Positions 5,620 through 25,605 of a stretch of 28,993 bases of DNA are shown piece by piece. The stretch spans positions 1 through 28,993 of IMG/VR virus record IMGVR_UViG_3300041964_000023. One strand, written 5' to 3'. A program made the translations under genes and the position numbers. Position 1 is the stretch's first letter; each line of letters opens with the position of its first letter. The notes under the pieces were generated by a model, which worked only from the letters and a program-made list of their open reading frames with translations, had not been told where the DNA came from and did not search any database. The DNA comes from a virus.

Positions 5620-5681
5620 AACGCCGCAGAAATCTGCCGTTTCTGAGGCATAGCATGGCACAAAAACCGCTGCATGTGTGC

Positions 5682-6726
5682 CTAGGTTTGTGCCGACTCT
5701 TCCATCACGATCGCAGCCTGTTCCGGGGTGAGGTAGGCCAGATACTCTTCCGTCTGCTTGATCGTGCCGTGCCCCAATACCTTCTGCAGCCGATAATCGA
5801 CCCTCTGTTTTCGAGGTAGCGGATAGCCATCTCGTGCCGGAAGTCGTGGAAGCGCATGCGGGTGAATCGGCGCCCAGATTTCTGTGCCGACTTTTGTGCC
5901 CGGCCGACGACCTCTCGGACATCTCGGTCACCCGCTTGTACGGACCGCCGTTGCGCGTATTGAACACATAATCCGAGCCAGCAATCCGGGGCTGGCGCTG
6001 TACGATCTCGCGAGCCCGGGGCGTCAAGGCAATGGTCCGCGGCACCCCGCTCTTTGTGTCCACGAAGGTCGCCTTGCCGTCCTTGGCGTCGCTCCTGAGT
6101 AGAAAGACCACCTCGTCCATCCGCCCGCCCGTTTCGAGCGCGAACCGGCATAGATCGCCGAAGGTGCCGTGCATCCGCGCGAAAATCGCATCGATGTCCT
6201 CCGCCGGCGGCCGACGGTAGCGCCACTTGCGCGCCCGCCTCGGCTTCTTCGCCAAAAGATCCACCGGGTTCACCTCGGGCCAGCCTGGCAGCTCGCGCAC
6301 ATGCTTTGCTATTCCGGAGATGACCGTGAGATAGCGATTGATCGTCGCCACACCGCTGCCAGATCGCCGCCGCGCCTCCGTGAATTCGATCAGCGCCGCC
6401 TTGTCCACCTGGTCCCAATACTTGTCGCCCAAGTAGTCCAGGATCACCCGCAGTAGCTTGGCGTACCCAGCCGCGGTCTTCGGCTTCCACTGGCCCGCCT
6501 CGAGCCACAGCGTCGCAGCCTCCTTGAAGGTGGCGCGAATCGTGCCGTGGTAGGGCGAGTTCTCTTTCAGCCACGAGACGAGCCGGCGTTCAGCTTCTCT
6601 TCGAGAGCGCGTCTTAAGCGACTGTCGACGCTCTCGTCCGTTAACCTGAGCACGGGCGTACCAGACCCCGTTGCGCTCGTAGAGGTTCTCCGGCTCATCA
6701 CCGCCTTTTCGCTTGCGATCACCCAC
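5682..6726 (-). CDS. int: Tyrosine recombinase / phage integrase, frameshifted at the C-terminus
   Basis: Catalyses site-specific recombination between attP and the host tRNA-Ser gene. GTG 6726 starts the frame. An N-terminal Arg-rich segment (ENLYERNGVWYARAQVNG) is followed by a SAM-like core-binding domain (KTAAGYAKLLRVILDYLGDK) and the catalytic domain. There, ALETGGRMDEVVFLL carries the first Arg, FHDFRHEMAIRYLE the H-x-x-R box, and LGHGTIKQTEEYLAYL the second His and the nucleophilic Tyr. Frame breaks near 5910 and 5810 separate these blocks. The reconstructed stop is TAG at 5682-5684, about 348 residues, normal for the family. Without the shifts the frame would read on into the tRNA fragment, which is an artefact. 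Confidence 0.85.
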
Positions 6727-6881
6727 GCCCGTAGCCTCTGCCTGTCATAGGTCCAGCTTCTTCCCAGCTTGGCCGCGCCCCACACCTCGCCCTTCGCGGA
6801 CAGGTTTTGCAGGGTCCGCGGGCAGAGGCCAGTGATAAGCACGGCCTCCTTCGTTTTGATGCGATCGGGCTGAGCCGTCAT
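6567..6881 (-). CDS. Excisionase-like small HTH protein
   Basis: ATG 6881 overlaps the upstream 21-codon gene by four bases and follows a GGAGGGG site. The first 50 residues (IKTKEAVLITGLCPRTLQNL, then AKLGRSWTYDRQRLRAW) look like the winged-helix MerR/AlpA-type fold of phage excisionases: HTH, then a Trp-containing strand, then a helix. Such proteins bend att DNA and direct the integrase towards excision. As written, the frame continues to 6567 and overlaps the integrase start by 160 bp, with low-complexity sequence after about residue 57. A lost stop near 6710-6720 is likely, so the true 3' end is uncertain. Confidence 0.6.
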   Translation of the reverse strand: MTAQPDRIKTKEAVLITGLCPRTLQNLSAKGEVWGAAKLGRSWTYDRQRLRAWVIASEKAVMSRRTSTSATGSGTPVLRLTDESVDSRLRRALEEKLNAGSSRG

Positions 6882-6943
6882 CCCCGCCCCTCCATCTCCG
6901 CCACGACCGCCGCAAACCGCGTCAGTGCCGCCCGCGACTTCAT
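6878..6943 (-). CDS. Micro-ORF (21 aa) coupled to the excisionase-like gene
   Basis: ATG 6943 overlaps the preceding gene's TGA (ATGA), and its own TGA overlaps the next ATG (ATGA). The product (starts MKSRAALTRF, ends AEMEGRG) would form one amphipathic helix. Exact four-base overlaps on both sides argue for a translated peptide or a coupling device rather than chance. Function unknown. Confidence 0.45.
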   Translation of the reverse strand: MKSRAALTRFAAVVAEMEGRG

Positions 6944-7163
6944 GTTGTCCTGAGGTCGCCGCGGTCAGGCTGTGTGCCGACGCGGAAGGCGAGGACATCC
7001 TTGGCGGCGGTGAGGAAGGTGGCTGCTCGTCGAGAAGGTCAGCCGCCTCCTCTGCCGTGCGAATTCGGCGCAGTGTGGCCTGATCTTCGCTCTCATGGGC
7101 ATAGCGGCCCCTGAACCGGAGTGCTTCTGCCACCTCCCGCGCCTTCTTGCTCTCTTCACCCAT
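6940..7163 (-). CDS. Hypothetical phage protein (about 74 aa), one frameshift
   Basis: ATG 7163 starts MGEESKKAREVAEALRFRGR, followed by DQATLRRIRTAEEAADLLDE. Near 7020 one base must be skipped to continue TFLTAAKDVLAFRVGTQPDR and stop at 6940-6942. The alternative unshifted frame gives Ser/Pro-rich sequence. The product is a charged helical protein with no recognised family. It overlaps the upstream gene by eight bases. Confidence 0.5.
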
Positions 7164-7455
7164 GACCCTCTCCGGTGTGTGCGCCTTGCTCGATGGCGGT
7201 GGCAAGGAGCAGAGGACTGTTGCTGACGACATGAGTCGGCGATGCAGAGACCGTGTGCGGCTGTTCCCGTAGCCACGCCACCACAGCCGCTCGCTCGGAT
7301 GCTATGGCGGCGTCGATGGCTGCTAGGGCCTCGCCGGTGGTGTGGTAGATGCTGCCTCCCTCAAGCACGCACCGAACCTCTTCCTCACGACCTTTGCGCG
7401 TCTTGGGTATTGCCGCCGCCAGCAGCTCCCGCGCCCGGTTGGTCGCCTCAGTCAT
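7156..7455 (-). CDS. Hypothetical phage protein (99 aa)
   Basis: ATG 7455 follows AAGGAG at 8 bases, the best ribosome site in this stretch. The product has a helical first half (RARELLAAAIPKTRKGREEE), a central GGSIYHTTGEALAAIDAAIA and AVVAWLREQPHT, and a flexible Ser/Thr/His tail. No known domain; soluble. It overlaps both neighbours by eight bases in the leftward early operon. Confidence 0.6.
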   Translation of the reverse strand: MTEATNRARELLAAAIPKTRKGREEEVRCVLEGGSIYHTTGEALAAIDAAIASERAAVVAWLREQPHTVSASPTHVVSNSPLLLATAIEQGAHTGEGHG

Positions 7456-7648
7456 GGGAACGCTCCTTATGGCGACCGGCGATGATGAGATTGTTGATTT
7501 CGTTGCCGATGTCCCAGCAGCAGGCGCGCCAGGCATTCGTGTTGCGAGACAGCCCGACCCGAACAATAGCCGCTTTCACTTCCTCGCTGGACAGCCAGAC
7601 GGCGGACGGAGTCGGGTGAGCGGGCGCGTAGGGCGGCTCCTCAGTCAT
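7448..7648 (-). CDS. Hypothetical phage protein (66 aa)
   Basis: ATG 7648 overlaps the upstream stop (ATGA). The product starts MTEEPPYAPAHPTPSAVWLS and contains SSEEVKAAIVRVGLSRNTN and WRACCWDIGNEINNLI. It has a Pro-rich N-terminus and a helical C-terminus with paired Cys. No recognised family. Confidence 0.6.
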   Translation of the reverse strand: MTEEPPYAPAHPTPSAVWLSSEEVKAAIVRVGLSRNTNAWRACCWDIGNEINNLIIAGRHKERSHD

Positions 7649-8052
7649 GGGAGGGGGTGTCCTTCCGACGCAGCGAGATCGCGTTCCAAGGCGTCCATCC
7701 CTTTGCCGCGGACGCCGAGGTAGCTGGTGAGGGCCGCTGGGCTTAGGAAGTTGCGTGCGCGCTCCATGTCGGCCGGATCGTCGGCACGGAAGGCGGCAAT
7801 TGGTTTCAGCCCTTCGGGGAACACGGCGACATAGGCGGCATTGAACGCCTCTCGGCAACGCTGGCATGTTCCGCGGCCCGGCTCCCAAGAAACATCCAGG
7901 CGGTTCCCATAGCTGAGGAAGGTCTCGATGCCGCCAGATTCTCCTTCAGGTTTACCGAGCAGCTTTCTGCCGCACCATGTACGGCCAACGCCCAAAGTCT
8001 GCGGATGCCGCTGCGCGCGACCGTTCGCAATGTGGATGGCAGCCTCACTCAT
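7645..8052 (-). CDS. Hypothetical phage protein with possible zinc-binding Cys pairs (135 aa)
   Basis: ATG 8052 is preceded by AAGGGA about 11 bases upstream. Residues 1-50 include HIANGRAQRHPQTLGVGRTW with WCGRKLL, and a CQRC motif follows at about residues 63-66. WCG and CxxC could form a small treble-clef or ribbon zinc site, as in many phage nucleic-acid-binding proteins. The C-terminal half (FPEGLKPIAAFRADD, then AALTSYLGVRGKGM) is unremarkable. Function unknown. A 38-bp gap on its upstream side is the only real gap in this part of the operon. Confidence 0.6.
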   Translation of the reverse strand: MSEAAIHIANGRAQRHPQTLGVGRTWCGRKLLGKPEGESGGIETFLSYGNRLDVSWEPGRGTCQRCREAFNAAYVAVFPEGLKPIAAFRADDPADMERARNFLSPAALTSYLGVRGKGMDALERDLAASEGHPLP

Positions 8053-8090
8053 CGCTCAGCTTTCCCTTCGTTCGAGGGGGGAGAGGGGGG

Positions 8091-8354
8091 TCACAGCATC
8101 ACCTTCCCGGCGCGCAGCATCTCGGCGCAATGCTGGAGGTAAGCGAAGTGGAGTCCGGCGGGGCGCGGGCTGGGTATCAGGCTCTCGATGAGGCGAGCCG
8201 CGACTAGGTTGCCGGGCGAAGCGAAACACTCTCCTCCTCGCATACACCGGGAATGGTGCACGCAATCCGGAGTGAAACCCTCGCACCGCATCACTGCGTT
8301 GCCGAACCTTTCAAGCGGAGCACCTTCTTGAAGGTCTCTTTCACGCGCCTTCAT
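8091..8354 (-). CDS. Cys-rich hypothetical phage protein (87 aa)
   Basis: ATG 8354 overlaps the stop of the DfrB-like gene (ATGA). A cluster of Cys and His (MRCEGFTPDCVHHSRCMRGG, then ECF) at residues 28-51 suggests a metal-binding knuckle. The C-terminal half (LVAARLIESLIPSPRPAG, then AYLQHCAEMLRAGK) is helical. No family recognised. Confidence 0.6.
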   Translation of the reverse strand: MKARERDLQEGAPLERFGNAVMRCEGFTPDCVHHSRCMRGGECFASPGNLVAARLIESLIPSPRPAGLHFAYLQHCAEMLRAGKVML

Positions 8355-8959
8355 CCGACCTTCTCCGGGTTGAGGGCTGCGGTAAGGGCGGCGCGCACGA
8401 TCCAGCGAAGGCCGGAGTGGTCGGCGCCGAGCTCGATGGATTTTTCCCAGGGAATCGGCTCGTCCGCACCCACGCCAGCCGCTTCGACCAAGGCCGGGCT
8501 GATCGCCGTGAAGGGCCGCTGCTCGTAGACCTGCTGCGTCACCCGCTCGACCATCGCCTCGTCGGCGGCGCCGCCCCACGGCAGCAGCGCGGTCTCGGGA
8601 TAGATCTGGACCGATCCCGGCTCGAATGCGCTCTCGACCGCATAGCCGAGCGCCGTCACCTCAGTGCGATACCAGCCGACGATCTTACCGCGCCAAGATG
8701 CGCGGCCCTTCTTCTGGACCAACGCGCCGCACTGGAACTGCGCGTCCGTCGGCCATGGCATCGCCTCGTCGGGGGTGAAGACGGCGAGGAGGTCACGAAG
8801 CTCGACGATTGCCTTGGCGTAGGCAGTCAAGTCCTCTCTGTCGCCATTGTTCTCGTTTGCCTCGAACAGTTTGCGGATGCGGGTCATTTCGACCCGCACT
8901 GAGGTCGTCGTTGGTGCGACTATCCGCTCCCGCAGCGTCTGCGCTTCGTCACCGGGCAT
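8351..8959 (-). CDS. Protein with an R67/DfrB-type (type II) dihydrofolate reductase domain (202 aa)
   Basis: ATG 8959 has GGGAGG five to six bases upstream. Residues about 74-127 match the small SH3-like type II dihydrofolate reductases of plasmid R67. An FQCGALVQKKGRASW block aligns with the R67 strand carrying Lys32 and Trp38, IVGWYRTEVTALGYAVES follows with a near-identical pattern, and EPGSVQIYPETAL contains the hallmark VQIY (residues 117-120). In R67 those residues form the active pore of a homotetramer that reduces dihydrofolate with NADPH and ignores trimethoprim. Here the domain sits between an N-terminal helical extension (1-69) and a C-terminal helical part (133-202, MVERVTQQVYEQ and WIVRAALTAAL), far longer than the 78-residue plasmid enzymes. 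Activity is inferred from motif conservation only; a scaffold or DNA-related role is possible. Confidence 0.7.
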   Translation of the reverse strand: MPGDEAQTLRERIVAPTTTSVRVEMTRIRKLFEANENNGDREDLTAYAKAIVELRDLLAVFTPDEAMPWPTDAQFQCGALVQKKGRASWRGKIVGWYRTEVTALGYAVESAFEPGSVQIYPETALLPWGGAADEAMVERVTQQVYEQRPFTAISPALVEAAGVGADEPIPWEKSIELGADHSGLRWIVRAALTAALNPEKVG

Positions 8960-9092
8960 CGGAGCCTCCCACGATGCGCACCGGCAGGTGTTTCAGGATG
9001 CCCGGGCTGGATCGGACGAGGCGTGCGGACACGCGCCACCACACGCCGTCGCCGAGATAGACGGCCTTGTCCGTCATGCGCTCACCGGGCAT
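8949..9092 (-). CDS. Small hypothetical protein (47 aa), paralogue of the gene at 12733
   Basis: ATG 9092 with AAGGAG seven bases upstream is preferred over ATG 9077, which has no ribosome site. The product reads MPGERMTDKAVYLGDGVWW, then RVSARLVRSSPGILKHLPVR. The segment from MT to RSSP is nearly identical to residues 8-31 of the 12733-13062 product, at both DNA and protein level, so one is a partial duplicate. Start and stop junctions carry the shared ATGCCCGGTGA overlap. Confidence 0.6.
   Translation of the reverse strand: MPGERMTDKAVYLGDGVWWRVSARLVRSSPGILKHLPVRIVGGSDAR
9004..9077 (-). repeat. 74-bp direct repeat, copy 1
   Basis: Matches 12968-13041 with two mismatches (CCGTCG/CCCTCG and TTGTCC/TTGCCC), 3,964 bp apart in the same orientation. 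It encodes the shared N-terminal segment of two paralogous small proteins. Confidence 0.85.
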
Positions 9093-9780
9093 CGGGGTTC
9101 TCCTTGGCGGGGATGGAGACTGCGGTGGCGACCTTGGATGCGACGGCAGCAATGCCGGACTGGCGGATCACCCTTTTCAGCATCAACCGCTCGATGTTCT
9201 GGTTCCACGGAGCGTCGAGAGTTGTGTCGATCCCGAACTCGGCGAAGACTGCCTGTCGCTGACTTTCGATCAGGTCACGGAAGAAGACCGCGATCACATA
9301 AGGCTCATCCCAGATAGGAGACCCCTGTGCATCAAGCTTGGCGCAGGGTTCTGTCACTGCCTTCCCCTCTCCCCCGTCTTGAGCGGTGCGGGCCTCTGTT
9401 GCTATGTCTCGAAAGTGCATCGCCTGCAGATGATAGACGCTGGGCACCGGCTTTGCCGTCTGACCCTGCTGCTCGGCGTAGTGCTCAAGGCACGCGGCCT
9501 GCTGATCATTCTTCAAGGCCAGCTTTTCCAGCGCCTCCCGCAGCCTCTCCGCTTCCGCCTCGGCTGCTTCGGCTCGGGCCACAGCAACCCCGCATTGACC
9601 GACTGCTCTTGCGTATTGGTCAGCGTAGAAGTCGACGCTCCGCTGCACCTCTCCCAGCTCGGCTCGTAGTGAGGTGATCTCGGCATCTCGAGCAGTGTCG
9701 TCGCCAGCCATGCGCTCATCATGCCGGGAGCACGGTCCCCAGTTCAGGCAGTTCCGAGCAAGGTTTTCGTGTTCCCCCAT
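9082..9780 (-). CDS. Hypothetical phage protein with coiled coil (232 aa)
   Basis: ATG 9780 shares one base with the stop of the ATPase gene (TGATG). A Cys-containing N-terminus (LARNCLNWGPCSRHDER) leads into a long predicted coiled coil, residues about 30-100 (EITSLRAELGEVQRSVDFYA, AEAAEAEAERLREALEKLAL). The C-terminal region (YVIAVFFRDLIESQRQAVF, then NIERLMLKRVIRQSGIAAVA) is helical. Co-transcription with the recombination ATPase and exonuclease suggests an accessory role, but no family was recognised. Confidence 0.65.
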   Translation of the reverse strand: MGEHENLARNCLNWGPCSRHDERMAGDDTARDAEITSLRAELGEVQRSVDFYADQYARAVGQCGVAVARAEAAEAEAERLREALEKLALKNDQQAACLEHYAEQQGQTAKPVPSVYHLQAMHFRDIATEARTAQDGGEGKAVTEPCAKLDAQGSPIWDEPYVIAVFFRDLIESQRQAVFAEFGIDTTLDAPWNQNIERLMLKRVIRQSGIAAVASKVATAVSIPAKENPDAR

Positions 9781-10910
9781 CACTCCGCTCCCACCTGGCC
9801 GTGCCGCACCATGCCGGCCGCGCTGATCTCGTCGGCAGAAGCGGCGGTGCTGCCGTCGTGCTGGCCGCCATGGTCCGCATCCGAGCGTCCGAACGGTACA
9901 TCCTCTGGCAACGCGGCCAGTTCGTCCGCGACACGGCACAGAGACTGGATCTCGTCCATAATCGGTCGAACGGCTCCTCGAGCAGCTTTTCCCTCGTCCG
10001 TTCCCCACCACTCGGTAAAAGCCTTGGTGCCGCCGCGAGCCCTCTCCCGAGCAAGGTCCATCGCCTCCTTTTGCTTCTGCGCCTCGTTGTCGCCGCTTGC
10101 CCACTTGGCCATTGCATGCCCGGTGTGCTCGCCCATCGGCTTGCGCGGGTCGAAAAGGCCCTTGAACTGGTCGGCAACCTTGATCTGGTGAATTGGGCAG
10201 CCAGGGGCCGACGGGTCGAGGATGACCATGGCGGTCATTTCGAACATCAGATCCCCGTCGCTTGCCGGATCCCACGGAACATCGTCGCGGCGGGTCTTGG
10301 TCTTGCGGGCATTCTTCGCTTTCTCGCCGAATCCCTGCTGCATGACCGGCTTGGCCCGGGTGCAAATGATGATGTTCGTCTTGGCCCTGACGATGCGATC
10401 GATCAGACGCCGATACCGCGGCTTCACCTCCGCCCATGCCAGTTGGCTGTACTTGGCCGGGTCAACATCGTAGCGGCCGTTGGCGCGCTTCTCAGCCTCT
10501 TGGACGAGGCGGTCCAGCACTTGCGCGTGAAGGTCGAGCACGCCACCGACGCCCTCCCATGCGTGGCTGAAGCTGTCCAGGATAAGCACCGGCAGTTCCG
10601 CTGCCTCGGCGGCATCGATCACCTCGATCCAGCGCTCCGGGCCAAAGCCGACCAACTCGCCGGCGTCATCAATCGCGGTGAAGTCGAAATGAACCATCTC
10701 CGGAAATGTGGCCTTGTAGTGGAGAGCGCGCTTGTTCTCGGTGTCCACATAGCCGATGGGCGAACCCCGCGGCCCTGTCGTGGCCTCGGCCATGCCGCGC
10801 GCCACGCGGAGCGCGGTGAAGGTCTTGCCGGTCGCGCTGCCGCCGGAGATGCCGAGGGCGATCGTTAGCGGGTCATTGATCTCGCTGACCGGGATGAACC
10901 TGATGCTCAT
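9780..10910 (-). CDS. RecA-like AAA ATPase, Sak4-type recombination protein (376 aa)
   Basis: ATG 10910 overlaps the upstream nuclease stop (ATGA). Walker A is GGSATGKT at residues about 23-30, preceded by LTIALGIS. The Walker B-like strand is LPVLILDSFSHAWEG at about 106-120. A conserved IIICTRAKPVMQQGFGEK follows, with a charged linker (KNARKTKTRRDD). This layout is that of the phage RecA-core ATPases grouped as Sak4, which assist single-strand annealing or strand exchange on phage DNA. Location next to a YqaJ-type exonuclease supports a recombination pair. The C-terminal third (KQKEAMDLARERARGG) is helical and low in conservation. The DNA-repair role is inferred from fold and context. Confidence 0.75.
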   Translation of the reverse strand: MSIRFIPVSEINDPLTIALGISGGSATGKTFTALRVARGMAEATTGPRGSPIGYVDTENKRALHYKATFPEMVHFDFTAIDDAGELVGFGPERWIEVIDAAEAAELPVLILDSFSHAWEGVGGVLDLHAQVLDRLVQEAEKRANGRYDVDPAKYSQLAWAEVKPRYRRLIDRIVRAKTNIIICTRAKPVMQQGFGEKAKNARKTKTRRDDVPWDPASDGDLMFEMTAMVILDPSAPGCPIHQIKVADQFKGLFDPRKPMGEHTGHAMAKWASGDNEAQKQKEAMDLARERARGGTKAFTEWWGTDEGKAARGAVRPIMDEIQSLCRVADELAALPEDVPFGRSDADHGGQHDGSTAASADEISAAGMVRHGQVGAE

Positions 10911-11602
10911 TGGAATGTCTCCTCGTAAATCGCAATGATGCTGGCAATTTTGGCCTCCGCTGCTTGGGAGGCTTCAAGGATCGCAGCTTGGATCTGATCG
11001 TCCGGATGGACGCGAATGACGGCCATCGGCAGCTTCTTCGAATAGCTGGTGAAGTCGATCCACCGGCGCTCCGATACGAGCAGGCCGGTCTGATGCTGCA
11101 TCAGGTACTCAGGCGGGATCGTGCCGTTTAGAAGGTGTTCGATGAGGGTCTGAACTTGATACTTCTGGCGCCGGGACTTGCATTCCAGAAGGCCGTCGCT
11201 GCCGACAAGCCCATCCGGCGAGTAGCCAAGCGTGAACCCCCACTTGTCGTTCGTGATGAACCCGCACTGCGTGACAGGCGCATAGCGTTCAGAATAGAGC
11301 GCGCGTGCCTCGGCCTCATCTTCCTCGCCGCGGATCATGTCGCTCGAAATGAAGACGGGTTCGACGGCCTTGGTAAGGCGCTGGGCGGCCAGCTCGTAGA
11401 TGTGGGTTCGGCACGCCTCATCGTCAGCAACCACGATCCATTCGCGCTGCTTGTAAGGCTCGCCGTTCTTCTTGATGCGCGTCTCTTCTTTGGGCGGAGG
11501 AGATACAATCAGCTTCATCTCGCTCGCCGTCAGCAGCCCGCAGCGAGCCGCCAGCCACTCGTCGGAGCCTTGGATGAGACCGTTGTGGTAGCGGATGGTC
11601 AC
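10907..11602 (-). CDS. YqaJ/lambda-type alkaline exonuclease (231 aa)
   Basis: GTG 11602 has GAGGAGG upstream and overlaps the preceding gene (GTGA). Motifs: GLIQGSDEWLAARCGLLTAS at the N-terminus, typical of YqaJ viral recombinases, and the PD-(D/E)xK nuclease core GYSPDGLVGSDGLLECKSR near residue 145, where Asp and ExK bind metal. QHQTGLLVSERRWIDFTSYS matches the last conserved motif. Predicted to digest one strand of double-stranded DNA ends, making substrate for the adjacent Sak4-like ATPase. Length is normal for the family. The gene is intact. Confidence 0.82.
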   Translation of the reverse strand: MTIRYHNGLIQGSDEWLAARCGLLTASEMKLIVSPPPKEETRIKKNGEPYKQREWIVVADDEACRTHIYELAAQRLTKAVEPVFISSDMIRGEEDEAEARALYSERYAPVTQCGFITNDKWGFTLGYSPDGLVGSDGLLECKSRRQKYQVQTLIEHLLNGTIPPEYLMQHQTGLLVSERRWIDFTSYSKKLPMAVIRVHPDDQIQAAILEASQAAEAKIASIIAIYEETFQ

Positions 11603-11736
11603 CGCCCCCTCCTCACCGGCTGAGCGCGAACCAGATCGGCGGCGCGGTTGATCGCCTCCCAAGCGTCCAACTCCTCGTCCGTCGGGATGTAGGTGGGCGC
11701 GCGCTCGGTGAAGCGGTGATCGGAGGTGCGGGTCAT
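11599..11736 (-). CDS. Small hypothetical protein (45 aa)
   Basis: ATG 11736 overlaps the upstream stop (ATGA), and its TGA overlaps the nuclease GTG (GTGA). The product starts MTRTSDHRFTERAPTYIPTD and continues ELDAWEAINRAADLVRA: a short acidic/helical protein. Exact four-base overlaps on both sides support translation. No family recognised. Confidence 0.55.
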   Translation of the reverse strand: MTRTSDHRFTERAPTYIPTDEELDAWEAINRAADLVRAQPVRRGR

Positions 11737-11924
11737 GATGCACCTGCCTGGAGCATGAGGATCGCGTTCTTTGCCGCTATCACCTCAGCACACTGATCGG
11801 CGCCGCCCGCTAAAATGACTTCGGCGTCTCGCTCCCCACATAGGCGCGCGTCCTTTGCTGCGCGGTCTTGCCAGAACTTCGCGGCTGCCCGTCGAGCAAT
11901 GTGAAGGACTTCCTCGTCGCTCAC
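11733..11924 (-). CDS. Small hypothetical helical protein (63 aa)
   Basis: GTG 11924 is chosen because GGAGG lies five bases upstream; a TTG four codons earlier has none. The product contains VSDEEVLHIARRAAAKFWQD and ADQCAEVIAAKNAILMLQAG, all helical with a Cys pair. It overlaps both neighbours by four bases. Function unknown. Confidence 0.6.
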   Translation of the reverse strand: MSDEEVLHIARRAAAKFWQDRAAKDARLCGERDAEVILAGGADQCAEVIAAKNAILMLQAGAS

Positions 11925-13988: not shown

Positions 13989-14310
13989 TGGACGGCTCCC
14001 CGCGTGCGAGGGAAAGGGCGTCATCAAGTTCCGACAGGAAGGCGTTCACCTCCTCGCGGGGAATGTCGCCATAGTCTCCGCCGCACTCGTTGGCGCGATG
14101 CTGGACCCGCGCCGCAATGTCAGCGAAGGTCGGAGCGGTGACGATCAGGTGGGCATCTTCCTCGCGCGTCACATCGTGAACGACAATCGAACCGTCAGCA
14201 GCCACGATCCTATCGGCAATCCGCTCATCGCGTCGGTCAACAGGATGGTGAGCCCAAGGCCCCGCCGTCCACGCCTCCCCGCCTGCCTCTGTGGTGCGGG
14301 GGGAGGTCAC
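13978..14310 (-). CDS. Hypothetical phage protein (110 aa)
   Basis: GTG 14310 overlaps the stop of the pentapeptide gene (GTGA). It contains [20 protein letters not shown], then [20 protein letters not shown] and [21 protein letters not shown] short beta-rich front ([11 protein letters not shown]) precedes acidic helices ([18 protein letters not shown]). It resembles phage proteins that report on nucleotide or site availability only vaguely, so no function is assigned. Confidence 0.6.
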
Positions 14311-15059
14311 TTGGACTGCTCCGCGAGGCGCTTCATGTCCGCAAGCGCTTCATCGTTCGAGCAATAAAAGCTCGGCAAACGCTCCATGCTTGGGTCGCTG
14401 GCAAGGTAGATCAGGGTCGCGGCCGCTGCGGTGCCGATCTTGTGCTCGAGGGCCTTACCTTCATCGCCGGCCAGCGTGACGACCCAGCCGGCGCGGCAAT
14501 GCGTCGTATCGCAAGTGTGCCAAGCGCCCATGTCGAGAGCGCGCGGCTGAGAGGCCGCCGCGTACACCTGCTTGTGAATGTCGGGGATAACAGGGGCATC
14601 GCGCAGGACGGCACCGCTCAGGTCGGCACCGCTCAGGTCGGCACAGCTCAGGACGGCACCGCTCAGGTCGGCACCGCGCAGGACGGCACCGCTCAGGACG
14701 GCACCGCTCAGGTCGGCACCGCTCAGGACGGCACCGCTCAGGTCGGCACAGCTCAGGTCGGCACAGCTCAGGACGGCACCGCTCAGGTCGGCACCGCGCA
14801 GGACGGCACCGCTCAGGACGGCACAGCTCAGGTCGGCACCGCGCAGGACGGCACCGCTCAGGTCGGCACCGCGCAGGACGGCACCGCTCAGGACGGCACC
14901 GCTCAGGTCGGCACCGCTCTTCCAGGCCCACTTGATGGCTAGGCCGAGTTTCACTCGCGGCGACAGATCCGGCGCACAGCTGATCTCGGCGGTGAATTGG
15001 ACCTTGCCGGTCCAACGGTTGCGAACCTCAAACTTTTCGTGGGGAGCCAGCGTTGCCAC
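14307..15059 (-). CDS. Pentapeptide-repeat protein (250 aa), first gene of the leftward operon
   Basis: GTG 15059 with GGAGA eight bases upstream, about 30 bases after the predicted pL start. Residues 1-47 are a short head ([18 protein letters not shown]). Residues about 49-153 are 21 tandem pentapeptides of the A(D/V)LSG/A(D/V)LRG type, which should fold into a right-handed quadrilateral beta helix. Residues 155-250 form a separate C-terminal domain with [19 protein letters not shown] and [15 protein letters not shown]. Proteins with this fold include Qnr and MfpA, which mimic DNA and shield gyrase, but most phage members have no tested role. First position in the operon fits an early host-interaction factor. 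Confidence 0.75.
14601..14915 (-). repeat. 21 tandem 15-bp units encoding the pentapeptide repeats
   Basis: 315 bp of a 15-bp unit, on the plus strand GGCACCGCTCAGGTC or GGCACCGCGCAGGAC and close variants. Units differ at only three or four positions, far less than needed to keep the protein pattern, which points to recent copy-number expansion. The period keeps several other frames open on both strands. Confidence 0.9.
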
Positions 15060-15096
15060 GGTCTTCGTCTCCGGCCGCCGGGGTGGCGGTGGAGAC

Positions 15097-15125
15097 TGTT
15101 TAGGCTAGCTAAACGGCACGCGCAA
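15097..15125 (-). promoter_or_regulatory. Leftward early promoter (pL)
   Basis: On the minus strand TTGCGC (15125-15120), a 17-base spacer, and TAAACA (15102-15097). The spacer and -10 contain operator OL1. The layout is base-for-base like pR (TTGCGC-N17-TAAACG; spacers share TGCCGTTTAG). It drives the operon beginning at GTG 15059. Confidence 0.65.
15098..15114. promoter_or_regulatory. Operator OL1
   Basis: GTTTAG-GCTAG-CTAAAC, perfect 6-base arms. It covers the -10 and spacer of pL, so bound repressor would block RNA polymerase. Confidence 0.7.
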
Positions 15126-15132
15126 GCTGTTT

Positions 15133-15149
15133 GTTTAGCCTAACGAAAC
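15133..15149. promoter_or_regulatory. Operator OL2
   Basis: GTTTAG-CCTAA-CGAAAC, one mismatch from the consensus, 35 bp from OL1 centre to centre. It overlaps the last codons of the repressor gene, upstream of the pL -35. Confidence 0.6.
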
Positions 15150-15446
15150 TTTTTTCTCGAGCGTCACGTCGTTGAGCGTCTCGACCTCGCTGGCAAGGCG
15201 CAACATTCCCACGCGGAGGCGCCGAAGCGACATCGCGTCATCGGGATGCATCAGCAGCTCGTAGGGGCGCAGGTTTAGATACTCAGCGAGCTCGTTGATA
15301 TCGTCGCGCGTATAGGGCTGCTTCCCACTGGCGGTGAGGCTCACCCTCGCCTTGTTCCAGTCCAGATCGCGCACGATGTCTGCCTGCTTCTTGCCAAGCG
15401 TCTTCAGCCACTGCTTCAGGTACCAGTCATGCGCGGGAGCTGCCAT
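15135..15446 (-). CDS. CI-like HTH repressor (103 aa)
   Basis: ATG 15446. An N-terminal Xre-type HTH domain is visible: WLKTLGKKQADIVRDLDWNK, ARVSLTASGKQPYTRDDINE and LAEYLNLRPYELLMHPDD at residues about 13-75, followed by a short helical tail (SLRRLRVGMLRLASEVE) and no peptidase or RecA-cleavage domain. It is bracketed by four 17-bp operators and divergent from a Cro-like gene, so it is the prophage repressor. There is no ribosome site. A TATCAT -10 ends six bases before the ATG, suggesting a leaderless message. Without a cleavage domain, induction must work differently from lambda, perhaps by an antirepressor. Confidence 0.75.
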   Translation of the reverse strand: MAAPAHDWYLKQWLKTLGKKQADIVRDLDWNKARVSLTASGKQPYTRDDINELAEYLNLRPYELLMHPDDAMSLRRLRVGMLRLASEVETLNDVTLEKKVSLG

Positions 15447-15452
15447 GTGCGA

Positions 15453-15481
15453 ATGATACCACCCACGCTTACGACGGTCGT
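15453..15481 (-). promoter_or_regulatory. Repressor-maintenance promoter (pRM-like)
   Basis: TATCAT at 15458-15453 on the minus strand, with a poor -35 (ACGACC, 15481-15476) at 17-base spacing. The -35 abuts operator OR2 (15480-15496), the geometry expected if bound repressor activates its own promoter. The predicted start falls at the A of ATG 15446. Confidence 0.45.
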
Positions 15482-15496
15482 TTCGCTCAGCTAAAC
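15480..15496. promoter_or_regulatory. Operator OR2
   Basis: GTTTCG-CTCAG-CTAAAC, one mismatch from the consensus. It is 36 bp from OR1 centre to centre and adjoins the repressor promoter. Confidence 0.6.
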
Positions 15497-15504
15497 ATTT
15501 GATG

Positions 15505-15533
15505 TTGCGCCTGCCGTTTAGACAGTCTAAACG
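15505..15533 (+). promoter_or_regulatory. Rightward early promoter (pR)
   Basis: TTGCGC (15505-15510), 17-base spacer, TAAACG (15528-15533). The start is predicted about seven bases later, at or next to ATG 15541, so the first message would be leaderless. It shares its layout and operator position with pL. Confidence 0.65.
15516..15532. promoter_or_regulatory. Operator OR1
   Basis: GTTTAG-ACAGT-CTAAAC, perfect 6-base arms, covering the spacer and -10 of pR exactly as OL1 covers pL. Confidence 0.7.
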
Positions 15534-15540: not shown

Positions 15541-15762
15541 ATGACGCTAGACGCATATCTCAGCCGGCCTGACGCCAAACAGCTTACGACGCTCGCTTCC
15601 GAGATCGGAGTTTCGAAGGGCCGGCTGTCCCAACTTCGTCATGCGACCGACTGGCCGCCCGAGCTGGCATTGAACGCGGAGAAAGCCACCGGCGGTGTGC
15701 TGAACGCTTCATTGCTCTCGCCCGTCGTTGCGAAGGCGCGACTTCCGCAAGAGGCCGCGTAG
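15541..15762 (+). CDS. Cro-like HTH protein (73 aa)
   Basis: ATG 15541, divergent from the repressor with the operators between. The product resembles YdaS/Cro-type small HTH proteins: MTLDAYLSRPDAKQLTTLAS, then EIGVSKGRLSQLRHATDWPP at residues 20-40 as the recognition helix, and ALNAEKATGGVLNASLLSP. Such proteins lower repressor expression and favour the lytic route. There is no Shine-Dalgarno sequence before the ATG, in agreement with a leaderless pR transcript. Confidence 0.72.
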   Translation: MTLDAYLSRPDAKQLTTLASEIGVSKGRLSQLRHATDWPPELALNAEKATGGVLNASLLSPVVAKARLPQEAA

Positions 15763-16725: not shown

Positions 16726-16777
16726 TCATCGCCGTGCCCACTCTTTCTTGCCATGCCCACGATGGGAGCAATGCACG

Positions 16778-17230
16778 ATGAGCGTCCGCCAATCGTCGGA
16801 AAAGAGACCCGTATTTTCCGCTTCGTCAGTTCTCGATGCCGTCGCTTCCGAGCTGTCGCTTATCAAGTCTCAGGATCGGCTCACATATGCCGACTTAGCG
16901 CGGGTGCTCGGCAGGTCTGACGATCAGGCTGCCAAGTATTGCGAGGGCACTGCCGAGATGGGCATTGTCGCCTTTGCCAGCGCGAAGCGCGAGTGGAACG
17001 GTCGCTTCACCGGTGCACTTGATCGTCTTTGTCACGATAGCCGCCCCAGCAAGGTTGCTGATCGCCACCACGAAAGCAAGGTGCTGAAGGCGGCGTTAGC
17101 ACTGTCTATCGCACTGACTGACGACGACGAGATATGTGCCGAGGATGTTCGGGCAAACCGCGCGACTATCGAGGCCGCGCGCGACAGCCTGGAAGCCCTG
17201 CTGAGTAAGTTGACGGTGCAGGCGGCGTGA
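16778..17230 (+). CDS. Hypothetical phage regulator-like protein (150 aa)
   Basis: ATG 16778 with GGGAG upstream. The segment DRLTYADLARVLGRSDDQAA, then KYCEGTAEMGIVAFASAKRE and RFTGALDRLC, resembles a phage protein with an HTH-like start that may bind DNA. The C-terminal half (KVLKAALALSIALTDDDEIC, then NRATIEAARDSLEALLSKL) is helical and oligomer-like. Its stop overlaps the methyltransferase GTG (GTGA). Role inferred from pattern only. Confidence 0.6.
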   Translation: MSVRQSSEKRPVFSASSVLDAVASELSLIKSQDRLTYADLARVLGRSDDQAAKYCEGTAEMGIVAFASAKREWNGRFTGALDRLCHDSRPSKVADRHHESKVLKAALALSIALTDDDEICAEDVRANRATIEAARDSLEALLSKLTVQAA

Positions 17231-18351
17231 CCGTCCGCATCCTCATAGGCGACTGCCGGGAGCGGATGAAGGAGTTGCAGGATTGCAGCGTCGACTCCGT
17301 TGTTTGTGATCCACCGTACCATCTGACGAGCATCGTGAAGCGGTTCGGCTCGGCAACCGCGGCGCCTGCTCAAGTCGGTGCCACCGGTGCCTATGCCCGT
17401 GCCTCACGCGGCTTCATGGGCCAAACCTGGGACGGCGGCGACATCGCGTTCCAGCCGGAGTTTTGGGCCGAGGTGCTGCGCGTCCTGAAGCCTGGTGGGC
17501 ATCTCGTCGCCTTCTCCGGCTCCCGCACCTACCACCGCATGGCTGTGGCGATCGAGGATGCCGGGTTTGAGATCCGCGACCAACTCATGTGGCTGTACGG
17601 CTCCGGGTTTCCGAAGTCGCACAATCAGCCTGGCGGGCTCGGTACTGCTCTCAAGCCAGCGCACGAACCGACCTGCCTCGCTCGCAAGCCGCTGATCGGC
17701 ACGGTTGCCGCCAACATCGCTGCGCATGGCACCGGGGCGCTGAACATCGACGGGTGCCGGATTGAAGCGGGCAAAGAGACTATCGAGCGCGGCGATCTTG
17801 ACGCCGCCTATACCAACTCAGCCGAAGGTTATCAGCGGCTCAACCGCAGCATGATGACCCATAAGCCGAAAGAACGTGCAGGGCCCGCAAATGCACTCGG
17901 TCGCTGGCCCGCCAACATCATCCACGATGGCAGTGAGGAAGTGCTGGCCGGGTTTCCCGAAAGCAACGCTCGCGATGGCGTGACCAAAGGTGCGAATTTG
18001 GGGTTCCACGGCGGAGGTGCGGCCCACAGCCGGATCCCAAAAGAAGTGCGAAGCGACACCGGCTCCGCAGCCCGCTTCTTCTACTGCGCCAAGGCCACCT
18101 CCGAGGAGCGCGGCGAGGGCAACAATCACCCGACCGTGAAGCCGGTCGCGCTGATGCGCTGGCTGTGCCGTCTCGTCACTCCGAAGGGCGGGACGGTGCT
18201 GGATCCGTTCGCCGGATCCGGATCAACCCTGATCGCAGCTGACGCCGAAGGGTTCGATGCGATCGGCTGCGAGCTTTCCCCGGAATATGCAGCCATTGCC
18301 GAGCGCCGCATGCGCGCCGCTGCCGGCATGTTCGCGGAGATAGCAGCATGA
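17227..18351 (+). CDS. DNA methyltransferase (N4-cytosine/N6-adenine type, 374 aa)
   Basis: GTG 17227 overlaps the upstream stop. The catalytic motif comes first: VDSVVCDPPYHLTSIVKRFG has DPPY at residues about 28-31. The SAM-binding motif comes last: GGTVLDPFAGSGSTLIAADA, then CELSPEYAAIAERRM near residues 325-360. That order places it in the beta-group of amino-methyltransferases. The middle (WLYGSGFPKSHNQPGGLG, FFYCAKATSEERGEGNNHPT) is the usual linker and target-recognition region of phage enzymes. No restriction partner is nearby, so it is probably solitary, used for anti-restriction. Full length, intact. Confidence 0.85.
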   Translation: MTVRILIGDCRERMKELQDCSVDSVVCDPPYHLTSIVKRFGSATAAPAQVGATGAYARASRGFMGQTWDGGDIAFQPEFWAEVLRVLKPGGHLVAFSGSRTYHRMAVAIEDAGFEIRDQLMWLYGSGFPKSHNQPGGLGTALKPAHEPTCLARKPLIGTVAANIAAHGTGALNIDGCRIEAGKETIERGDLDAAYTNSAEGYQRLNRSMMTHKPKERAGPANALGRWPANIIHDGSEEVLAGFPESNARDGVTKGANLGFHGGGAAHSRIPKEVRSDTGSAARFFYCAKATSEERGEGNNHPTVKPVALMRWLCRLVTPKGGTVLDPFAGSGSTLIAADAEGFDAIGCELSPEYAAIAERRMRAAAGMFAEIAA

Positions 18352-18533
18352 CTGGCTGGCACTCCAAACAAGCCCTCCCGCCCGATCTGAGCCTCATAGA
18401 TCCGCAGCTCGCGGACGCGCGCATTGCCGCGGCGGCCGAGTATGAGCCCGACTCCATTCCCAGCCGCGCGATTCTCTCCGGCCAATGGGACGGCGGATCC
18501 GTCGTCGGCAGGCATTTGCGGGGAGGGGAGTGA
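18348..18533 (+). CDS. Small hypothetical protein (61 aa)
   Basis: ATG 18348 overlaps the methyltransferase stop (ATGA). The product starts MTGWHSKQALPPDLSLIDPQ and contains LADARIAAAAEYEPDSIPSR. Its stop shares one base with the next ATG (TGATG). No recognised family. Confidence 0.55.
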   Translation: MTGWHSKQALPPDLSLIDPQLADARIAAAAEYEPDSIPSRAILSGQWDGGSVVGRHLRGGE

Positions 18534-19354
18534 TGCCTCCGACGAAGATTCCCGCGAACTTCGCCGAGATCGCGCACCTCCCGAACAAACAGCTCGTTGC
18601 GATGCTGGGCGTGGCCGAGAAGACGATCAGTTGTGCGCGCACTCGTCTGGGCATCAGTAAGAAGGGCGGACGCACCCCTGAGGTCCGAGTTCCCGATGGT
18701 TTTGCTGCCCGGGCCGGGAGAGTCCCGGATCGGACCGTAGGGGCCGAGTTCGGTGTTTCCATCGCCACGGCCCTCCGGTGGCGCAAGGCGTTGGGCATCT
18801 CGAAGTATCGGCGGCCGAAGGCTGAGAAACCCGCGAAGGCTAAGCTGTTGCCGCGCGGTGGCAGCCTTGGTCACCCGGTGCCTGACGACTTCACACGGCT
18901 GGCGCCCACTTTGAACCTCATGGCGCTCGCCAAGCACTACGGTCGCGACAGGAAGACCATCTACCGCTGGGCAAAGCTCACCGGCGTCTATCCCAAAATG
19001 CATCGCCGCGACCCACGGCAAATGGCGCATCGCCCGCCCGAGCAGCGCGTCAGCCGCCGGCCCGGTCGTGCTCGCAAGCCCGTCGAGTTCGCCCGCACCA
19101 AGCCCGTCGCGGGCCGTATGGTGCTCCCAGCAGCGCCGCGCCAGGCCCCACAGCGTGCCGGGCGCGAGGAAGAGGCCGCTCAGCACCTCCGGCGCCATTA
19201 CCCGATCGTCTGCCGCTGCAACGAGCGCGGAGGCGCGGACCAGAAGGGTGAGTTGTGGCTGGTCGGGTCGGCGGTGCTCACGCCGGCGGAAATGCTCGAG
19301 CGGGCCAAGCGCAAGGGGTTTGATCCGGAGATCTGGCGGAGGATCGCGACGTGA
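18533..19354 (+). CDS. Multi-HTH DNA-binding protein (273 aa)
   Basis: ATG 18533 follows GGGGAGGGG. Three helix-turn-helix-like units are visible: PNKQLVAMLGVAEKTISCAR (residues about 16-40), RTVGAEFGVSIATALRWRKA (62-85) and NLMALAKHYGRDRKTIYRWA (123-148), each resembling a transposase/sigma-type HTH. A basic Arg/Pro linker (RPPEQRVSRRPGRARKP) and a Cys-containing C-terminus (HYPIVCRCNERGG, then TPAEMLERAKRKGFDPEIWR) follow. Position between methyltransferase and replication genes suggests an origin-binding or regulatory factor. Confidence 0.6.
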   Translation: MPPTKIPANFAEIAHLPNKQLVAMLGVAEKTISCARTRLGISKKGGRTPEVRVPDGFAARAGRVPDRTVGAEFGVSIATALRWRKALGISKYRRPKAEKPAKAKLLPRGGSLGHPVPDDFTRLAPTLNLMALAKHYGRDRKTIYRWAKLTGVYPKMHRRDPRQMAHRPPEQRVSRRPGRARKPVEFARTKPVAGRMVLPAAPRQAPQRAGREEEAAQHLRRHYPIVCRCNERGGADQKGELWLVGSAVLTPAEMLERAKRKGFDPEIWRRIAT

Positions 19355-19494
19355 GACGGCGCCATTTCTCCAAGAAGCTGAGCAAGGCTCAGAAAGCGGT
19401 CGTACCGTCGATGATGGACGCCGCTGTCGCTGCGGAGGCGCGGACGGTCGAGGAGTGCGAGCAGCGCTTGGCAGAGGAGGCGAAGAGCCGATGA
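19351..19494 (+). CDS. Small hypothetical protein (47 aa)
   Basis: GTG 19351 overlaps the upstream stop and its TGA overlaps the nuclease ATG (ATGA). The product begins RRRHFSKKLSKAQKAVVPSM and ends in an acidic helix (RTVEECEQRLAEEAKSR). A basic-then-acidic helical peptide. No family recognised. Confidence 0.55.
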   Translation: MRRRHFSKKLSKAQKAVVPSMMDAAVAAEARTVEECEQRLAEEAKSR

Positions 19495-19937
19495 CCTCCG
19501 CCAACCCCCTCGATATGCCCGCCGACGATTTCGATCAGGAACTGGACCCGGCTATCTATGTCGAGCCGAAGGACCGCGGCACCGCCTCTGAGGATGCGCG
19601 CCAGGCCGAGTTCGTGACGCTGATGCGGCGTACCGCGCGGGCGTGCCGGGTCTTTGCCGTGCCCAACGGTACGCATATCGCCAGCCACGCGGGACGGGCG
19701 AAGCGGCAGCGGGAGGGCCTGCTCTCCGGCGAGCCCGACACCGGCATAAGCTGGGCTGACGCGCCTACGGCTCGGATCGAGTTCAAGAACGGCCGCAAGA
19801 TGCCGGACGAGAACCAGATTGAGGCGCTCAACTGGTACCACCAGCGCGGCCATCCCGTCGCCGTTTGCCGGACCGCAGAAGGCGCGATGTGGTGGCTCCG
19901 CTCGATCGGCGCTCCGGTGCCTGAGGTGCGGTCGTGA
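19491..19937 (+). CDS. VRR-NUC domain nuclease (148 aa)
   Basis: ATG 19491. The core is the VRR-NUC restriction-fold pattern: SEDARQAEFVTLMRRTARAC, VFAVPNGTHIASHAGRAKRQ, then GLLSGEPDTGISWAD and ARIEFKNGRKMPDENQIEAL. The metal ligands are the Asp of GEPDTGISW and ExK of RIEFKNG, at residues about 82 and 97-99. Standalone phage VRR-NUC proteins are thought to resolve branched DNA such as Holliday junctions during replication. Adjacent replication genes agree with that. Intact, normal length. Confidence 0.8.
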   Translation: MTSANPLDMPADDFDQELDPAIYVEPKDRGTASEDARQAEFVTLMRRTARACRVFAVPNGTHIASHAGRAKRQREGLLSGEPDTGISWADAPTARIEFKNGRKMPDENQIEALNWYHQRGHPVAVCRTAEGAMWWLRSIGAPVPEVRS

Positions 19938-20284
19938 ATGCGCCGGCGCAGATCCAACGCCCTGCATCTCGACGCGCTGCTTACGAGCCAATTGTGCGGA
20001 CGATGCTCCCTGGCTGTGACGGCGAGGAATTGCAACAGCGGTGCTCGCTGCTTCTGGCCCGCGACAATGCAACGGCCGGCCTGCGTCGCTGCTCAGATGA
20101 GGCGGCAGCGGTGCTCGAGCATGTTCAGCGCCTCGCGACGACCTATGCGTTCGCCTCACTTCCTCTCGCTGCCCTCAAGGCGCTCCGATACCAGATTGTG
20201 ATGCTCACCGCTGCTGCGGCTGGGCTTGAGCAGTTCGCCTACGGCGTGGCCTCCAATGAGGAGGGGGCAGATGCGCGTGGCTGA
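19934..20284 (+). CDS. Hypothetical phage protein (116 aa)
   Basis: GTG 19934 overlaps the nuclease stop (GTGA). After a Pro/Arg-rich start (APAQIQRPASRRAAYEPIVR), the body is helical: EELQQRCSLLLARDNATAGL, AAAVLEHVQRLATTYAFASL and ALKALRYQIVMLTAAAAGLE. It overlaps the helicase gene start by 14 bases. Could be a helicase-loader or accessory factor by position, but no motif shows that. Confidence 0.55.
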   Translation: MNAPAQIQRPASRRAAYEPIVRTMLPGCDGEELQQRCSLLLARDNATAGLRRCSDEAAAVLEHVQRLATTYAFASLPLAALKALRYQIVMLTAAAAGLEQFAYGVASNEEGADARG

Positions 20285-21548
20285 GGATGGATATGAGGGC
20301 CTGCATCCGGGGCCGGACCTAGATCCGCAGCGCGATGGATTTGACGAGTCCGCGTATGCTCCGGAGCCCGGGCCAGCGAAAGTGGTCGAGATCGCCACAG
20401 GGAAGCCCGTAGAGCGCAAGGAAGGCGAAATGCGCGCCTCACCTTTCACCTGGCGCCCGGAGGCCGATCTGCCCCGCCGTCAGTGGCTTTACGGGCGACA
20501 TCTGCTGCGCAAGTTCCTCAGTGTCGATGTCGCGGCCGGCGGCGTCGGTAAATCCTCGCTCAAGATCGGCGAGGCGTTGGCGCTTGCAAGCGGCCGCGAC
20601 ATCTACGCTCAGACGCTGCACGAAGGCCCGCTGCGGGTGTGGCTCTACAATCTCGAGGATCCGAACGAAGAGACAGAGCGCCGCATTCATGCCGCGGTGA
20701 AACGCTTCAACATGCGCCCCGAAGATTTCGGAGACCGCCTGTTCATGGACAGCGGCCGCGACCAGCGCTGCGTCATCGCTGAAGAAACCGCGACCGGCGC
20801 CAGGATCATCAGACCGGTGGTGGACGCCATCAAGGCTGAGCTCCTGGCGCGGCAGATCGATGTCCTCATAGTCGATCCCTTCGTCTCCTCGCACATGGTT
20901 AGCGAAAACGACAATATGGGCATCGATCTCGTCGCGAAGGAATGGGCGGCCATCGCCGACGCTTGCAACTGCTCGATCAACCTCGTGCACCACGTGCGCA
21001 AGGCCAACGGCACCGAAGCGACGGCAGACTCAGCCCGCGGCGCATCATCGCTGATCGGTGCCGCCCGCTCAGTCATGGTCTTTAACAGAATGACGCCGGA
21101 CGAGGCCGAGAAGGTCGGCGTGGCGGCGGAGGAAGCGCGGTTCTTCTTCCGCGTCGACAATGACAAGGCGAACCTCGCGCCGCCTGGGGCCACGACCTGG
21201 TATCGCATGAACAATGTCGACCTCGACAACGGCGATAGTGTTGGGGTGGCGTGCCGCTGGAAGGCTCCGGATCTGTTCGAAGGCATCACGACGGCGCACC
21301 TGATGCGGGTTCAGAAAGCGGTTGGGGCGGGCAGGTGGAAGGAGAGCCCGCAGGCCAAGGATTGGGTTGGAGTCGCAGTCGCTGAGGCGCTGATGATGGA
21401 CGCGGAGGACAAGAAGGACAAGCGCCGAATAGCCGCGATGATGAGGGAATGGATCAAGAACGGACTGTTCGAGGTGGTCGAGGATGTGGACCCGAAACGG
21501 CGCGAAAAAAAGCTGTTCGTAGTGGTCCTGAATTGGGTGTCGGAATGA
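20271..21548 (+). CDS. RepA-like hexameric helicase / AAA_25 ATPase (425 aa)
   Basis: ATG 20271 with GAGGAGGGGG upstream. After a disordered N-terminus (about 1-60), the RecA-like core begins at LRKFLSVDVAAGGVGKSSLK with Walker A AAGGVGKSS, followed by VWLYNLEDPNEETERRIHAA. The Walker B strand is IDVLIVDPFVSSHMVSENDN, and CSINLVHHVRKANGTEATAD, then ARGASSLIGAARSVMVFNRM are the later conserved motifs of RSF1010 RepA-type helicases. Predicted to unwind DNA at the phage origin. A C-terminal winged-helix-like part (KDKRRIAAMMREWIKNGLFE) completes it. The iteron/hairpin array starts directly after it. Confidence 0.8.
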   Translation: MRVAEDGYEGLHPGPDLDPQRDGFDESAYAPEPGPAKVVEIATGKPVERKEGEMRASPFTWRPEADLPRRQWLYGRHLLRKFLSVDVAAGGVGKSSLKIGEALALASGRDIYAQTLHEGPLRVWLYNLEDPNEETERRIHAAVKRFNMRPEDFGDRLFMDSGRDQRCVIAEETATGARIIRPVVDAIKAELLARQIDVLIVDPFVSSHMVSENDNMGIDLVAKEWAAIADACNCSINLVHHVRKANGTEATADSARGASSLIGAARSVMVFNRMTPDEAEKVGVAAEEARFFFRVDNDKANLAPPGATTWYRMNNVDLDNGDSVGVACRWKAPDLFEGITTAHLMRVQKAVGAGRWKESPQAKDWVGVAVAEALMMDAEDKKDKRRIAAMMREWIKNGLFEVVEDVDPKRREKKLFVVVLNWVSE

Positions 21549-23399: not shown

Positions 23400-23777
23400 A
23401 TGGCTAATCCGCGCCAGCCGGTAGCGAAGGCTAAGGCTACAGGCGCTGCCGCTAAGAACCCGGGGCGTCACGCTGATCGATCAAGCCCGAAGGTGACGGG
23501 GCTGGGCAAGCCTTCGACCTTTCTGGACAAGAATGGCCGCGAGGCGTGGGAGGGCTTCAAGCGCGAGCTGCCATGGCTCGCTGAATCGGATCGCTCTCTG
23601 GTCGAGATTGCTGCGCTTGTCCGCGGTCGGTTGCTGGGCGGCGAGGATGTTGGTGTGACCGCGCTGTCGATGCTGCAAGTCATCCTGAGCAAGATGGGCG
23701 CCTCTCCTGCCGACCGCAGCAAGGTAAGTGCACCAAATGGCGACGAGCCTGAAGACGAGTTCTTTGGTCCTAACTGA
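23400..23777 (+). CDS. terS: Terminase small subunit, P27-like (125 aa)
   Basis: ATG 23400. After a basic N-terminus (PRQPVAKAKATGAAAKNPGR), the P27-family pattern follows: VTGLGKPSTFLDKNGREAW, FKRELPWLAESDRSLVEIAA and GVTALSMLQVILSKMGASPA. The small subunit recognises the packaging site and hands DNA to the large subunit. Its C-terminus overlaps the large-subunit start by 41 bases, a common arrangement for this family. Intact. Confidence 0.78.
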   Translation: MANPRQPVAKAKATGAAAKNPGRHADRSSPKVTGLGKPSTFLDKNGREAWEGFKRELPWLAESDRSLVEIAALVRGRLLGGEDVGVTALSMLQVILSKMGASPADRSKVSAPNGDEPEDEFFGPN

Positions 23778-25595: not shown

Positions 25596-25605
25596 GAGAA
25601 CCCTA

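Follow-up and report, generated by a model that had tools for sequence, protein, structure and literature searches.

A putative lambda-like immunity switch with operator pairs on both sides of a small repressor gene in a temperate phage and its relatives

Introduction

In a virus record of 28,993 bp, which as a whole forms the window analysed here, a gene for a 103-residue repressor is bracketed by two pairs of similar palindromes. The locus raises the question of whether one small repressor controls two early promoters from these four sites and so decides between lysis and lysogeny. All conclusions were drawn from sequence by inference. On that footing, the locus is very probably a lambda-like immunity (lysis–lysogeny) switch of a temperate phage.

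Operators and promoters in the window

A sequence-only reading of the locus had described four 17-bp sites fitting GTTTAG-N5-CTAAAC, and all four were present, two of them exact and two with one mismatch. The outer left operator OL1 (15098–15114, GTTTAGGCTAGCTAAAC) and the outer right operator OR1 (15516–15532, GTTTAGACAGTCTAAAC, 86 bp upstream of the repressor start) were exact palindromes. The inner left operator OL2 (15133–15149, GTTTAGCCTAACGAAAC) and the inner right operator OR2 (15480–15496, GTTTCGCTCAGCTAAAC, centred 42 bp upstream of the repressor start codon) each had one mismatch, in both cases in the half facing the repressor gene. These were the only sites with at most one mismatch in the whole 28,993-bp window, and 100 dinucleotide shuffles of the window yielded 0.00 such sites. 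Centre-to-centre spacing was 35 bp in the left pair and 36 bp in the right pair, as had been reported, and the pairs were 418 bp apart from outer to outer site and 347 bp from inner to inner site. The pairs do lie at both ends of the 312-bp repressor gene, but OL2 is not outside it: it overlaps the gene end, and the TAA stop codon of the repressor falls within it. The OL2 half-site reads GTTTCG in place of GTTTAG. Avoidance of a stop codon was considered as the cause and rejected, because GTTTCG is kept in L008, L035, L037, L044 and L087, where OL2 lies outside the repressor coding region.

Twin TTGCGC-N17-TAAAC modules had been proposed as promoters pR and pL. Both exist, with spacers sharing TGCCGTTTAG. 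The rightward promoter pR (15505–15533, plus strand) consists of TTGCGC (15505–15510), N17 and TAAACG (15528–15533), with a predicted start at or next to the ATG of the cro-like gene. The leftward promoter pL (15097–15125, minus strand) consists of TTGCGC (15125–15120), N17 and TAAACA (15102–15097), with a predicted start near 15090. The repressor promoter pRM (15453–15481, minus strand) was recognised as ACGACC (15481–15476), N17 and TATCAT (15458–15453), with a predicted start at the ATG. A strict sigma-70 scan returned no promoter, and the terminator scan returned no matches. Promoter logos of the family described below supported the placement of the outer operator inside the promoter on both sides and put pRM, pR and pL in a lambda-like arrangement. 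In the pRM logo, numbered from the repressor ATG, aaCGAC occupied −36 to −31 and TATaAT occupied −12 to −7, with a spacer of N17. From the position of TATaAT, the repressor mRNA should begin at the ATG and is probably leaderless. At pR, 36 of 42 representatives had TTG(A/C) at 34–37 bp before the cro ATG, and the cro mRNA is therefore probably leaderless too. The same TTG motif occurred at pL at an equal distance from the outer site. The −10 hexamers of pR and pL (TAAACG and TAAACA) match TATAAT poorly, and their starts are therefore less certain than that of pRM.

The centre of OR2 is at −42 from the predicted repressor mRNA start, and the site touches the weak −35 element of pRM. Lambda CI bound at OR2 activates pRM from −42. 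Lambda OR2 likewise lies near the −35 element of pRM (PMC8630535). The earlier reading had overlooked pRM, the inner site at this OR2-like position, the YdaS/P22-Cro-like cro gene and the pL leader hairpin.

Conserved geometry in a family of relatives

Relatives of the repressor were drawn from viral contigs, sphingomonad genomes and three published phages. After duplicate removal 55 loci remained, with 53 used in the dyad test and 51 in the later tests, after exclusion of loci that were truncated, deleted or aberrant. The repressor start was taken, blind to the operators, as the nearest ATG (else GTG or TTG) upstream of a conserved W motif. In the dyad test, the palindromicity of every 17-bp stretch was scored independently of its letters. 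Across the 53 loci, a dyad peak was found at −86 from the repressor start, with a mean of 4.25 of 6 arm pairs (background 1.56, SD 0.31). A second peak lay at −50, and the signals at −13 and −17 were weaker; only some relatives have a third site, which is at −17.

The left pair was sought past the repressor stop codon, using the half-site specific to each locus. It was found with 34–36 bp spacing in 45 of the 51 loci, compared with a mean of 1.3 (maximum 3) for scrambled half-sites and 0 for half-sites of other classes; these family statistics are not fully independent, because the 5-bp central gap and the TTG anchor were chosen after inspection of the window and the first relatives, a post-hoc choice whose main risk is countered by the scrambled and other-class controls. 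The left pair was undetected in six loci, one of which has only 288 bases beyond the gene. These counts support the earlier reading in its placing of operators for one repressor at both pR and pL. The margin over both controls argues that the conserved geometry is real and valid for many operator sequences, as the family includes the classes GTTTAG, GTTCGC, GTTTGC, GTTTCA/G, GTTCTA, GTTGCG and others.

A search of 385 genomes of the whole class recovered only the known Qipengyuania prophage, and 398 genomes of the family of Qipengyuania gave five matches. The plasmid search gave no matches. The genome matches identified by name (L024–L028) were sphingomonads, and two loci (L029 and L030) belong to phages recorded on Microcystis and Pseudanabaena. 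Either the switch family crosses phyla or these recorded hosts merit re-checking.

Three metagenomic contigs, seemingly of one virus (L021, L022 and L023, at about 5940–6212), kept all four operators and cro. A single deletion had removed the repressor promoter, the start codon and the HTH, and the records of L021 and L023 retain an integrase. These contigs look like natural clear mutants, which would stay sensitive to immunity. Around half of the relatives carry at least one gene between the repressor stop codon and OL2, often with an ATGA overlap with the stop; examples are L008, L015, L026, L030, L035, L037, L044, L047, L057 and L067. Judged by eye, several of these intervening genes resemble membrane proteins or lipoproteins. 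The gap between repressor and OL2 looks like a slot for lysogenic cargo comparable to lambda rex.

Inter-pair distance and DNA looping

The near-symmetry of the pairs and their separation of about 400 bp had been taken to suggest repression by DNA looping. This argument did not survive the comparison of relatives, in which insertions of whole genes between the repressor and OL spread the distance between pairs over 347–1562 bp. Helical phasing between the pairs was evaluated at three periods in two subsets, all loci and short ones, and was rejected as evidence for looping: Rayleigh p values were 0.08–0.9 and no common phase was found in any test. The geometry therefore no longer argues for a loop. 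A switch in which the four sites act mainly through a repressor-mediated loop joining OL and OR retains the mirror-image pairs that flank the gene in 45 of 51 loci, and lambda CI joins OL to OR by looping. Set against the variable, unphased distances and a repressor modelled with a long C-terminal helix only and no large oligomerisation domain, such a mainly loop-based action is rather unlikely.

Repressor and Cro-like gene

The repressor gene (15135–15446, minus strand, 312 bp) encodes 103 aa with weak matches to HTH families of the Cro/C1 type in Pfam and PHROG. An AlphaFold2 model (pLDDT 81) placed the recognition helix at residues 32–40 and had a single long C-terminal helix and no peptidase domain; Pfam gave no match to an S24 peptidase domain in the 103 aa. 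Among solved structures, homologues were generic HTH proteins only. The earlier description of a small repressor lacking a cleavage domain was thus correct for the window and extends throughout the family, with full-length relatives of about 99–122 aa. Judged by this domain content, induction cannot be through RecA-stimulated self-cleavage of the repressor. SOS control through LexA boxes was rejected as well: the window holds two alphaproteobacterial boxes (GTTCN7GTTC; 0.76 expected), and neither precedes an obvious regulator.

The cro-like gene (15541–15762, plus strand, 73 aa) is weakly similar to YdaS and P22 Cro and is conserved in position among the relatives. Its similarity to YdaS_toxin (E 7e-4) is below the gathering cut-off of Pfam. 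It diverges from the repressor gene, and the 94-bp intergenic region holds OR1 and OR2. In the loci examined, a short open reading frame starts at most 12 bp from OR1 and is Cro-like in most. The cro-like genes beside OR1 are of visibly different sequence types between relatives and lie 6–11 bp from OR1 in most.

Operator sequence and recognition helix

Covariation of operator and repressor was analysed in 43 representatives. Operator similarity was correlated with similarity of the predicted recognition helix when the rest of the protein was controlled for (partial r 0.55, permutation p 0.0005), compared with a partial r of 0.10 for the rest of the protein when the helix was controlled for. 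In sliding windows along the repressor, covariation was maximal at residues 26–39, which include most of the modelled recognition helix. All 19 representatives with Leu at residue 37 had T at half-site position 4. At that residue, Gln, Asp or Glu occurred mostly with C, and Lys with G in two of three cases. Position 56, outside the recognition helix, also scored highly, so shared descent still contributes to the covariation. The covariation is strong evidence, but not proof, that the four sites belong to the repressor, as it is partly confounded with descent.

The sites could instead be primarily operators of the Cro protein, with the 103-aa protein as an accessory regulator. Cro-like genes adjoin OR1 throughout, and in the CP-933P immunity region PaaR2 and YdaS both bind overlapping sites in the same region (PMC8630535). 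Yet it is the recognition helix of the repressor with which the operators covary, in a test run on the repressor alone, and the sites bracket the repressor gene, one of them at the activation position of pRM. Assignment of the sites primarily to Cro is improbable on these grounds, and the repressor is preferred as their main ligand.

Gene order across the window

The first gene of the pL operon encodes a pentapeptide-repeat protein of 250 aa (14307–15059, minus strand). The remainder of the left operon, as far as recognised, extends over 5416–11743 on the same strand and includes a YqaJ exonuclease (10907–11743), an AAA ATPase (9780–10910), an excisionase-like HTH protein (6567–7232) and an integrase (5416–6726). 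The right operon was recognised on the plus strand over 16748–21548, with a DNA methyltransferase (17227–18351) and an AAA primase/helicase-like protein (20226–21548); TerL follows further right, beyond these genes. By annotation, the order of functions across the window is that of lambda. Rfam and tRNA scans returned no matches.

Several neighbouring genes showed features of their own. In the integrase reading frame, the match to the integrase family ends at about residue 265 and the catalytic part is in another frame, which points to a frameshift, either in the gene itself or introduced by assembly. The TerL reading frame (23728–26025, plus strand) continues in frame into matches to head proteins and a head maturation protease, a joining that is possibly a deletion or an assembly artefact. 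An R67-type dihydrofolate reductase domain (Pfam DHFR_2, E 1.4e-19) was identified in a 202-aa protein of the left operon (8351–8959, minus strand). Within the pentapeptide gene, the repeats (14600–14920) are built of near-identical 15-bp DNA units, which suggests a recent expansion.

These surroundings also bear on whether the locus is an autoregulated operon of the defence or toxin–antitoxin type and not an immunity switch. The weak YdaS_toxin similarity of the Cro-like protein points in that direction, and small HTH repressors serve such modules too. The neighbours, however, are divergent phage operons for recombination, integration and replication, with TerL further on, and the twin promoters pL and pR are conserved in phage contigs and published phages. 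A toxin–antitoxin style operon is highly improbable in this setting, and an immunity switch remains the preferred reading.

An inverted repeat in the pL leader

The inverted repeat (15067–15096, minus strand) starts immediately beyond OL1. Its 5' arm is GTCTCC (15096–15091), and its 3' arm GGAGAC (15072–15067) contains the ribosome-binding site of the first left gene. In the family, arms paired with a score of 16.0 with their own partners, compared with 11.1 for permuted partners (SD 0.58, maximum 12.7 in 200 permutations); the arms therefore covary. The predicted pL start lies just after the CTCC arm, so RNA reading through from the repressor gene would have both arms and pL RNA would not. 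Predicted exposure of the ribosome-binding site was 0.15 in read-through RNA and 0.33 in pL RNA, and 29 of 36 loci had the higher value in pL RNA, a difference that arises partly because the arm is removed, which leaves arm covariation as the independent evidence.

Since the repressor transcript heads toward pL without a recognisable terminator, read-through RNA would have its ribosome-binding site hidden by the repeat, which straddles the pL start, but in pL RNA that site would probably stay exposed. We tentatively propose, at somewhat less than even chances, that the pL module of many family members is a built-in read-through insulator and thus a translational second lock on lysogeny. Fold-back protection of the IS10 and IS50 transposase genes is a parallel. 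If true, the leader hairpin adds a translational safeguard that is absent from the standard lambda picture.

Proposed mechanism and implications

From the sites, their conserved geometry in the family and the covariation of operator and recognition helix, all of them features of the sequences themselves, we infer repressor binding, activation of pRM, leaderless starts and a role for Cro. The 103-aa repressor would bind as a dimer to OR1/OR2 and OL1/OL2. At OR1 and OL1 it would mask the −10 regions of both early promoters, pR and pL, and switch their operons off, shutting down cro, the methyltransferase and replication on the right, and the pentapeptide protein, recombination and integrase on the left. 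Bound to OR2, a site that touches the weak −35 element of pRM (ACGAC), it would make contact with RNA polymerase and increase synthesis of its own leaderless mRNA. Cro is expected to share the region and turn the repressor off, leading to lytic growth.

About 50 phage switches with the same wiring distances and many operator sequences form a natural set for reading the correspondence between helix and half-site. This set may allow shared phage immunity to be predicted from sequence alone.

Comparison with known systems

By its sequence, the switch resembles the known plan of lambda and CP-933P and differs in the length, number and spacing of its sites. Further differences of the family are the fixed geometry with diversified operators and the leader hairpin.

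Common with coliphage lambda are repressor and cro genes that diverge from a region holding operators and a second cluster at the presumed leftward early promoter. Repressor-controlled pL and pR, an operator at the activation position immediately before pRM, a repressor mRNA without leader (predicted here), and recombination and integration on the left with replication on the right are also shared. Unlike lambda, there is no CI cleavage domain, each cluster has two operators and not three, the pairs are 347–418 bp apart instead of 2.3 kb, and the sites are 17 bp long with 35–36 bp spacing.

Among alphaproteobacterial temperate phages, the C repressor of Sinorhizobium phage 16-3 is described as binding PL and PR (PMC3694467), and the likeness drawn from that description is to the two-promoter plan alone. 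Pseudanabaena phage Pam1 and Microcystis phages Mae-JY04 and Mae-JY28 are members of the family, with repressors 45–54% identical. Pam1 and Mae-JY04 have operators at the same places with different sequences (GTTCGC and GTTTCA types). The Pam1 paper describes CI-, Cro- and CII-like regulators, and the passages located in it on repressor, Cro and lysogeny mention no operators (PMC9382816).

The closest described system, which has been studied by experiment and is likened by its description, is the CP-933P immunity region of E. coli O157:H7 with PaaR2, YdaS and YdaT (PMC8630535). PaaR2 is a small repressor with no peptidase domain and is unresponsive to mitomycin C, and the mRNAs of paaR2 and lambda cI are leaderless (PMC8630535). 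In CP-933P, GTTTAG-type palindromes occur at pRM and pR, pL, beyond the repressor operon, has operators of its own and −35 and −10 elements identical to those of pR, and paaA2-parE2 is located between repressor and pL (PMC8630535). The related system Rac was compared through RacR, which showed no detectable similarity. The window shares with CP-933P the small repressor lacking a peptidase domain and pL beyond the repressor; its repressor mRNA is predicted to be leaderless, its Cro-like protein is weakly similar to YdaS, and many relatives share accessory genes between repressor and pL. GTTTAG palindromes at pR and pL and beside pRM are also common to both. The sites differ in length and spacing: the right region of CP-933P holds four 18-bp repeats at equal intervals and its OL has three operators, and the window has two 17-bp sites per side, 35–36 bp apart. 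Unlike in CP-933P, no gene separates the left pair of the window from the repressor stop codon, which the pair abuts. The switch with a small non-cleavable repressor, as described for CP-933P, would thereby extend to phages of sphingomonads and to others whose recorded hosts are cyanobacteria.
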